Assembly: GCA_017508195.1 (NCBI GenBank)
Contig: JAFVZL010000016.1
Coordinates: 1-41,644 of the forward strand
From: Clostridia bacterium
Lineage (GTDB): Bacteria > Bacillota > Clostridia > Oscillospirales > CAG-272
Reading direction: 5' to 3'
DNA: 41,644 nucleotides
A program made the translations under genes and the position numbers. Positions 10,523 through 26,819 of the stretch are shown one piece after another. The notes below the pieces were generated by a model that had not been told where the DNA came from, did not search any database, and was given only the letters and a program-made list of their open reading frames with translations. Within the stretch, counting starts at the first letter, position 1; every line of letters starts with the position of its first letter.

Positions 10523-10531
10523 TATCTGTCG

Positions 10532-10552
10532 GGTCTGCCATATTTGGTGAGA
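10532..10552 (+). repeat. Left copy of a 21-bp direct repeat bracketing the hairpin array
   Basis: GGTCTGCCATATTTGG followed by TGAGA. The right copy at 10812-10832 is the same except for CTAGA at its end. A related GCATATTTGGTGAGA is at 4274-4288. It is directly followed by a hairpin whose stem is GAATCTGC/GCAGATTC (10558-10584). Confidence 0.75.
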
Positions 10553-10583
10553 CCCAGAATCTGCATCCGCAGGATAGCAGATT

Positions 10584-10770
10584 CAATTAAATCCACCTTA
10601 TGGTGGAATAAATCTGCTTCGCAGATGAAATCCTCGCCAAGGCTCGGGTGAAATCGCACGGGCGTGCGGTGGATTTAACCAACCGAGGCGAAAGCCTCGA
10701 CATCATCCGATATAATCGGATTTCATCACGAAGTGACTTTATCCTGCGGTAATTTTGCCGCAGGATTTCA
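10584..10770. repeat. Hairpin array with GATGAAATC-type spacers
   Basis: At least seven short palindromes follow one another: TCCACC/GGTGGA (10592-10607), ATCTGC/GCAGAT (10612-10626), an imperfect CTCGCC unit (10632-10648), GCACG/CGTGC (10656-10667), CGAGGC/GCCTCG (10684-10699), ATCCGAT/ATCGGAT (10705-10721), TCAC/GTGA (10726-10736) and ATCCTGCGG/CCGCAGGAT (10741-10766). Between and inside them recur TGAAATC, TTAAATCC and their complements GATTTCA and GGATTTAA. The copies are direct on the left and inverted on the right, as in the array at 51-249. No ORF of note. The function is unknown. Confidence 0.85.
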
Positions 10771-10811
10771 TTTTCGAAAACGACGCTTCTCCCCGAAATC
10801 TGCCTATCCCC

Positions 10812-10832
10812 GGTCTGCCATATTTGGCTAGA
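10812..10832 (+). repeat. Right copy of the 21-bp direct repeat
   Basis: GGTCTGCCATATTTGGCTAGA, 19 of 21 positions the same as the copy at 10532-10552. Together they bracket a 300-bp unit that contains the hairpin array. Confidence 0.75.
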
Positions 10833-10833
10833 G

Positions 10834-10876
10834 AAAAAACGTCTTAAATGCGAAATGAGCATTTAAGACGTTTTTT
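10834..10876. terminator. Strong bidirectional terminator
   Basis: An 18-bp perfect stem (AAAAAACGTCTTAAATGC 10834-10851 with its complement at 10859-10876) has a 7-nt loop, with T-runs on both strands. It ends the flavodoxin gene (+) and serves the 14-repeat lipoprotein gene (-). Confidence 0.92.
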
Positions 10877-18964: not shown

Positions 18965-18972
18965 CGATGTAT

Positions 18973-19179
18973 AGATAGAGGCGCATTGAACGAATAGTAC
19001 CGTATGTTAGAGCTCCCAAGGCTTTACGGGAAAGGCGTCAGTGCCGAAGCTGCACCGTGGGAAGGTGCTTGCTGGCAGTGCGGAGAATATCCGTCCTGTT
19101 GTCGCAGTGATGCGGAGGGCTATCACATAAGGACGCTTTTTCGTTGTTGTGTTGGGTAGCCTCTCGGCTATCCTTTTTT
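18973..19179 (+). promoter_or_regulatory. Lysine riboswitch (L box) with terminator
   Basis: The aptamer (18973-19126) has the conserved L-box blocks AGAGGCGC, ATAGTA, AAGGCG, GTGCCGAAGC, TTGCTGG, TGTCGCAGTGATG and GAGGGCTATC. P1 is GATAG (18974-18978) with CTATC (19120-19124). The expression platform is a terminator, GGGTAGCC (19154-19161) with GGCTATCC (19166-19173), and six T. The 3' side of P1 (GGGCTATC) can pair instead with the terminator's 5' arm, giving an antiterminator when lysine is absent. High lysine therefore stops transcription before dapA. Confidence 0.95.
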
Positions 19180-26734: not shown

Positions 26735-26819
26735 GCGGACGTGGCGGAATTGGCAGACGCGCTGGTTTCAGGTTCCAGTGAAGCAATTCATGTGGGTTCA
26801 AGTCCCGTCGTCCGCACCA
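26735..26819 (+). tRNA. tRNA-Leu (anticodon CAG)
   Basis: The acceptor stem GCGGACG (26735-26741) pairs with CGTCCGC (26809-26815), followed by encoded ACCA. The D arm is GCGGAATTGGCAGACGCGC. The anticodon loop is TTCAGGT with CAG at 26769-26771. A class II variable arm has stem TGAA/TTCA, and the T loop is TTCAAGT. The innermost anticodon-stem pair is T-T rather than T-A, and two T-stem pairs are G-T wobbles. The gene's 3' half from the anticodon loop onward is duplicated at 29061. Confidence 0.95.

Follow-up and report, generated by a model that had tools for sequence, protein, structure and literature searches.

The window, that is, the whole 41,644-nt stretch of DNA that was analysed, lies on contig C2 of a Clostridia bacterium genome (2.02 Mb in 54 contigs, 88% complete; C, G and L numbers denote contigs, genomes and loci), and downstream of one of its genes it carries an array of eight unlike hairpins spanning 10592-10766, with spacers in direct orientation in its left part and inverted in its right part. 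The first-pass annotation had described this layout of eight different palindromes alternating with spacers, and our mapping of the individual hairpins and spacers bore it out. From left to right, the parts are:

10562..10585, no strand: H0, imperfect left boundary hairpin between the upstream gene and the array, 7 pairs with 2 mismatch loops
10587..10594, plus strand: left terminal spacer TTAAATCC; relatives start alike (AATTAAATCC / AACTAAATCC)
10592..10607, no strand: hairpin H1 TCCACCTTATGGTGGA
10608..10614, plus strand: direct spacer ATAAATC
10612..10626, no strand: hairpin H2 ATCTGCTTCGCAGAT
10625..10632, plus strand: direct spacer ATGAAATC
10632..10647, minus strand: imperfect hairpin H3; read on this strand it is CCGAGC..GCGAGG and contains tandem G.A mismatches; this motif is our probe
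10648..10655, plus strand: direct spacer GTGAAATC
10655..10668, no strand: hairpin H4 CGCACGGGCGTGCG
10671..10678, minus strand: centre GGATTTAA, inverse of the left terminal spacer
10684..10699, no strand: hairpin H5 CGAGGCGAAAGCCTCG
10701..10707, minus strand: diverged inverted spacer CATCATC
10705..10721, no strand: hairpin H6 ATCCGATATAATCGGAT
10719..10726, minus strand: inverted spacer GATTTCAT
10727..10735, no strand: short hairpin H7 CACGAAGTG, three pairs, or four with the flanking T-A; missed by a five-pair scan
10736..10743, minus strand: diverged inverted spacer ACTTTATC
10741..10766, no strand: hairpin H8 ATCCTGCGGTAATTTTGCCGCAGGAT
10764..10771, minus strand: right terminal inverted spacer GATTTCAT

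Because the outer bases of the spacers close the adjoining hairpins, about three free bases link one hairpin to the next. Hairpin H3 reads CCTCGC..GCTCGG on the plus strand, and its tandem mismatch is found again in relatives. The arrangement is that of a CRISPR reversed: here short spacers recur and the palindromes are unlike, whereas a CRISPR has identical repeats and unique spacers. Direct repeats of 21 nt, 90% identical and beginning GGTCTGCCATATTTGG, flank the array at 10532-10552 and 10812-10832, and a motif to its right, CTTCTCCCCGAAATCTGCCTATCCCC, is found again on other contigs as a second dispersed repeat around the array. Elsewhere, the window holds a Lysine riboswitch (18968-19130) and a tRNA gene (26735-26816).

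Two trivial origins had been named for the palindromes at the outset, namely chance and the copying of one repeat with errors, and both were checked. A scan of 10584-10790 for stems of at least five pairs found 8 hairpins with 53 pairs (seven of the eight named above plus one at 10768-10783, the short hairpin at 10727 being missed), compared with a mean of 3.6 hairpins and 20.9 pairs and a maximum of 8 and 44 in 1000 approximately dinucleotide-preserving shuffles; the hairpin number was matched by the best shuffle and the pair number by none. Likeness among the eight palindromes averaged -0.45, against -0.53 for random palindromes of the same composition (sd 0.05), so that, being barely more alike than random ones, they do not resemble one repeat copied with errors, and the claim that each has a different sequence holds. 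Structure prediction, proposed earlier as a check, gave z = -7.5 for the RNA fold of 10530-10835, with 0 of 100 shuffles equally stable. The arrangement TGAAATC-N(6-24)-TGAAATC occurs once in the window, where 0.02 occurrences are expected, and was present in 2 of 100 shuffles. Symmetry, judged by a fixed half-and-half split, which is a crude test, was seen in 15 of 50 arrays and in 0 of 50 shuffled ones.

A genome-wide search, likewise suggested beforehand, found dispersed copies: the core of the array used as a query hits 9 places in its own genome, and 25 of the 98 genomes searched (its own counted) contain a match, while a longer query with flanks hits 17 places in its own genome, some of which hold only the flanking repeat. 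A second array of the same family, family A, begins in the window at about 41,495 and is cut by the contig end at 41644. Arrays lie at or near the ends of contigs C2, C3, C5, C13 and C44 of this genome, and thus seem to break assembly. With a strict pattern for one recurring hairpin, the H3 probe, matches were found in 5 of 394 genomes of the order and in 71 stretches (76 matches) of a collection of 84,980 species with a single genome each; by their titles, 70 of the 71 stretches belong to Clostridia or groups within, mostly gut and rumen MAGs, and viral contigs gave no match to this probe. The one other stretch, L120, is from a MAG titled Akkermansia, possibly another phylum or else a mis-binned contig, and has hairpin-like arrays with other spacers (AATCTCGTT-like) together with two CCGAGC..GCGAGG hairpins. 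Across 60 related arrays, which their recurring spacers had served to choose, we counted 15 to 32 different left stems per hairpin rank (hairpins counted in order), nearly all of them Watson-Crick. Spacers recur and stems vary, which supports the earlier suggestion that the target of selection is the spacer-hairpin alternation and not a single stem.

Relatives of a single small four-helix-bundle protein, which we call FHB, are encoded at 21 of 123 loci. FHB belongs to PF05635 / TIGR02436 (PF05635 score 96 bits, cut-off 33.8). Three FHB genes were found in this genome, on C28, C40 and C41, each directly after an array and with three different spacer words among them; these arrays follow guaA, rlmD and a tRNA-Glu, and one of the places found by the queries described above (C28) adjoins one of the three genes. 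Contig C2 itself has no PF05635 match. Within the genus, an array score (hairpin z > 2 or a repeated 7-mer) was obtained upstream of 58 of 68 usable FHB genes, compared with 17 of 72 downstream stretches; six of the 58 (L224, L225, L237, L264, L266 and L274) were later judged to be without a hairpin array, which leaves 52, and some of the 17 downstream scores are other arrays. The usable genes come from 73, made up of the 30 best loci, the 3 of this genome and 40 taken in list order from a longer list, and 10 of the 68 have no upstream array score. Class-wide, z > 3 was reached upstream in 10 of 32 cases and downstream in 2 of 32. Some complete copies have what looks by eye like a promoter before the FHB gene. 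An FHB relative was also found in one viral locus and in 2 of 50,697 phage records, all three with an array-like upstream stretch and all possibly containing host DNA; for a defence reading, no PADLOC or PHROG match was seen.

At about positions 50-250 the window carries an array of a sister family with the spacer GTGAAGT, and the array that the first-pass annotation had placed at 51 is therefore real. This family occupies 14 places in the genome, with copies 99% identical over 201 nt and 100% over 90 nt, the closest of which (C14, C17) resemble each other over a longer left part and were perhaps copied within a larger repeat; copies with unrelated flanks on both sides are 83-89% identical. 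At L305 and L306, where the flanks are unrelated, the left end directly follows a T-rich stretch and the right end comes behind a terminal hairpin, and the ends at the junctions of this family, compared with the terminal inverted repeats of MITEs, are unlike each other. No FHB gene cognate to the GTGAAGT family was among the three found in the genome, which is 88% complete.

The arrays lie at the 3' ends of genes. A tRNA gene stands within 400 nt of 38 of the 76 probe matches, and 37 of these 38 are on its 3' side, with 24 tRNA types represented; an exception to this 3' rule is one of L305 and L306, where a tRNA-like sequence lies upstream in opposite orientation (by eye). Upstream of array-bearing FHB genes, the 3' end of the preceding gene points toward the array for 18 of 18 tRNA or tmRNA genes and for 31 of 38 ORFs, in a count for which 3 loci were too short and some minus-strand ORF picks look false (L268 and L287, behind guaA). 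Among 100 distinct tRNA genes, 30 are followed first by a terminator-like hairpin, starting at or beside CCA, and then by a family-A start, although these genes come from array-selected loci, so that 30 of 100 is no frequency, and by eye more of them bear arrays. At the 3' ends of guaA in the genus, a regular expression assigned 9 of 49 distinct loci to family A, 11 to a family B and 29 to neither, where reading by eye would add L136, L159 and L160 to the array loci; at L154 and L162 an integrase-like frame stands in place of the array (by eye). The right half of family A behind guaA is tandemly repeated several times at L018, L042, L155 (G018 contig C40) and L063. When 12 orthologs of the window's upstream gene were read by eye, G046 and G006 were seen to bear two other families at the gene end.

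Some of these junctions carry what may be traces of insertion. At 6 of the 11 family-B guaA sites, and also at L160, the first hairpin consists of the gene's 3' end followed by its exact inverted copy, with a stem of 15-19 nt that includes 14-16 nt of the gene and its stop codon. The copies come in four sequence variants, each matching its own gene, and at L126 and L159 imperfect inverted copies of the guaA end can be seen by eye. Judged from the sequences, the inverted gene end looks like the result of fold-back copying at insertion.

The spacer word goes with the lineage of the FHB protein. In a tree built from 101 FHB proteins, 16 changes of spacer label account for the 61 labelled rows (13 labels, least possible 12 changes; the 40 rows without a label were excluded), where 200 shuffles of the labels gave 45.5 changes on average and never fewer than 39, with a word list that was drawn up after viewing the data, some words being merged and L174 labelled by hand. 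The tree has 7 switches between bearing and lacking an array, against a shuffled mean of 31.5 and minimum of 25. Apart from a few exceptions, each FHB lineage has a single spacer word. Array-less FHB genes fall mainly in two groups on the tree, which has few columns and many unresolved forks, and one group is of an 'LKVWQKA' type that we take to be classical S23. That the word follows the tree may mean that the protein recognises it, but if array and gene were simply inherited together, the count would come out the same, and what it indicates is a stable pairing.

FHB genes that were not scored as array-bearing are often bordered by repeats of another kind. Considering 53 such genes (including L191 and L198, which the tree places among array lineages), tandem words of about seven bases are found upstream of 21 and downstream of 20, with a shuffle expectation of 0.05; in 16 of 53, the words downstream repeat those upstream in inverted form, and in 1 they are direct. 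The 16 divide into 10 of 16 plasmid rows, 4 of 16 genus rows and 2 of 21 class rows, the plasmid rows being 16 of 24 records in which L299/L309 and L301/L313 look nearly alike; L301/L313 carry both direct and inverted words. Bracketed loci fall within L297-L318 and the genus loci L224, L225, L228 and L245. Across two Nostoc plasmid stretches, bracketing was seen at both FHB genes (e.g. L310, L311) compared with 0 of 75 other genes, and inverted heptamer bracketing was seen at 0 of 22 genes of the window. Direct words on one side and inverted words on the other are thus a layout common to this bracketing and to the hairpin arrays. Cyanobacterial short tandem repeats (STRR) are likewise made of heptamer words. 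Around FHB genes of Nostoc-type plasmids the heptamers run direct on one flank and inverted on the opposite flank, but no hairpins were seen between the repeats, and the FHB gene lies between the two arms and not after both. Among plasmid genes, FHB is found between cas2 and cas1 at L318 (Anabaena cylindrica plasmid), between drmD and pglX at L313, and at L298, where it is unannotated, between the S and R genes of type I restriction.

The explanation that follows is built on what was observed: the array architecture, its link to FHB, the spacer word that each FHB lineage has with few exceptions to itself, dispersed copies, and a location at the 3' ends of genes. The window array is, with good support, a gene-less (solo) copy of a dispersed FHB-linked hairpin-array element. 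A complete element consists, in order, of a host gene 3' end or terminator-like hairpin, the left half-array, the centre, the right half-array and the FHB gene. The array is likely the cis site at which its FHB protein acts in spreading, with the constant spacers serving as the repeated binding word of the cognate protein, and it would carry complete and solo copies alike to new gene 3' ends. Joining would probably be left to host polymerases or nucleases, and in family B the insertion would have left an inverted copy of the host gene's 3' end through fold-back copying of that end. Several sites could be bound at once, since FHB relatives form rings of five: FHB matches PDB entries 2rld and 2gsc, with five chains in each, and one study reports a homopentamer of four-helix bundles for a relative (PMC4990558). 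Taken as a whole, solo copy and cis-acting spreading site together, this explanation seems to us probable, if by no means secure; against it stand the 10 of 68 genus FHB genes with no upstream score, the 17 of 72 downstream stretches that also score, the near-identical GTGAAGT copies for which no cognate FHB gene was found, and the strand bias of the tandem mismatches described below. Moreover, FHB is not a known recombinase, and neither reverse transcriptase nor Y1 transposase emerged as its partner.

Such an element would have features in common with IVS elements, which lie inside 23S rRNA, are cut out by RNase III, have been called selfish and are associated with an S23/IVP protein (PMC4990558). 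Shared with these are the PF05635 protein family, complementary bordering sequence and a link to a structured RNA gene, and complete copies encode a PF05635 protein as IVS do, the window copy being without one. At the same time, the hairpin arrays differ in lying behind the 3' ends of tRNA, tmRNA and protein genes, which are the neighbours we found, and in having spaced hairpins and solo copies; as to insertion in 23S rRNA, an Rfam scan of the window and of 40 loci gave no rRNA match.

A different possibility is that the array is a structured noncoding RNA of the Gut-1 kind, transcribed, folded and perhaps bound by FHB in an RNP, the DNA copies being its genes. Both halves of the window array, like both halves of L070, match the full length (1-77) of the Gut-1 model (RF01706):

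10584..10659, plus strand: left half, 39.3 bits, below the cut-off of 50
10695..10773, minus strand: right half, 40.1 bits, below the cut-off of 50

Half-arrays of relatives reach the cut-off in 2 of 20 sources (L026, L045) and in 6 of 20 in another set, which favours an RNA. Gut-1 appears in its original description as three hairpins separated by UGAAAU, entered as a noncoding RNA, 'human gut only', from environmental sequences only (Weinberg et al. 2010, PMC2864571). Three hairpins with UGAAAU-type spacers correspond to one half of our array, the other half being on the opposite strand. Unlike the Gut-1 entry, this half belongs to an array with two sides, which goes with an FHB gene and with the 3' ends of genes, and relatives occur in MAGs titled after many animal hosts rather than the human gut only. 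Literature searches, judged by titles and the openings of abstracts, turned up no work that connects PF05635 with hairpin arrays or deals with what Gut-1 does.

The mismatches within the stems bear on the same question. Across 125 arrays (sets of 65 and 60 that may contain the same genome twice, with 16 genus rows left out), single mismatches numbered 31 for G.T and 26 for A.C beside about 5,800 pairs, in a scan that asked for 5 Watson-Crick pairs with mismatches flanked by pairs and so understates all mismatches, leaving only the G.T to A.C ratio as a fair test. Selection at the RNA level favours G.U, so the missing wobble bias speaks against RNA and favours the DNA level; an RNA-only reading drew no support from these counts. 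Tandem mismatches in the 60 family-A arrays are GA/GA in 56 cases and TC/TC in 10, with 47 of the 66 in probe-type hairpins and counts of 19 and 0 outside them, a bias that fits a folded single strand, RNA included. Moreover, the tandem G.A mismatches are mostly on the tRNA-sense strand, and a tandem-GA hairpin is found in FHB-linked arrays of all families in 17 of 67 cases in sense and 3 in antisense, compared with 1 sense and 3 antisense of 38 in array-less controls (which include 17 genus rows), 6 and 1 of 102 downstream, and 16 and 7 of 335 in shuffles. The RNA reading also gains from the likening of PF05635 to Avd, an essential accessory protein of diversity-generating retroelements, in PMC10053308. 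It is opposed, apart from the lack of a clear G.T excess, by halves that are inverted copies of each other, so that neither strand is preferred overall, and by the 30 arrays that sit behind a tRNA terminator-like hairpin. From base pairing, we lean towards hairpins that act, or stay perfect, at the DNA level while keeping in play an RNA, at which the first-pass annotation had hinted by naming SHAPE, and we think it rather unlikely that a structured RNA is the whole explanation.

A role in the chromosome without mobility, REP/BIME-like or as a terminator or insulator (3' end protection, transcription stop, supercoiling), would agree with the position at gene 3' ends, the hairpins and the dispersed copies. 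REP/BIME elements are short palindromes in intergenic DNA that go with RAYT (Y1) transposases. Here, the palindromes all differ, a spacer recurs and no Y1 link is apparent: Y1 matches lie at 2 places in this genome (C17, C20) and in 18 of 69 genus genomes, with 5 of 22 relatives that have a family-A match compared with 12 of 46 that have none, many of these assemblies being incomplete. These counts leave a Y1 transposase unsupported as a linked mover. The C17 Y1 gene is about 10 kb from a sister-family array. Considering that a protein gene with a matching spacer word goes along with the arrays, and that three different families are found at one orthologous gene end, we find a purely chromosomal role improbable.

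The hairpins could also be mutational by-products, with template switching perfecting quasi-palindromes and function unneeded. Near-perfect Watson-Crick stems without wobble bias would be expected from this, although the scan itself favours near-perfect stems, and the first hairpin of family B, which copies the gene end, fits as well. Spacer words that follow the FHB tree do not, nor do the tandem mismatches that some hairpins keep, and the inverted guaA ends at L126 and L159 appear by eye to have decayed and not to have been corrected; we give this origin little credence. Least probable of all, in our view, is a retroelement aided in trans by a reverse transcriptase, as Avd aids diversity-generating retroelements: the resemblance of FHB to Avd, the insertion behind gene ends and the fold-back inverted copies would suit it, but reverse transcriptase (PF00078) is matched nowhere in this 88% complete genome and in 11 of 69 genus genomes, 2 of 22 with a family-A match (G009, G027) and 9 of 46 others, many of them incomplete, which leaves it, too, unsupported as a linked mover.

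A wider explanation may also be sketched, which we offer tentatively and would not count on. PF05635 proteins would be repeat-specific DNA-binding proteins that define a new class of minimal mobile elements, each lineage spreading its own word, direct in one arm and inverted in the other; in Nostoc plasmids, for example, the words would form plain tandem heptamers on both sides of the gene, and in Clostridia arrays of spacers and hairpins. Such elements would target gene 3' ends, could copy the end inverted by fold-back synthesis, and would encode no transposase, integrase or reverse transcriptase.

With these results, Gut-1, an orphan RNA motif of 2010, gains a genomic home, and PF05635, a widespread protein family without known function, gains a new genomic partner. 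Since spacer word and protein lineage are paired, a binding assay could test function, and the inverted heptamer bracketing of other FHB genes offers a handle on cyanobacterial short tandem repeats. If the explanation is true, elements at gene 3' ends that copy their target inverted, without a recognisable joining enzyme, would represent a new mode of DNA spreading.
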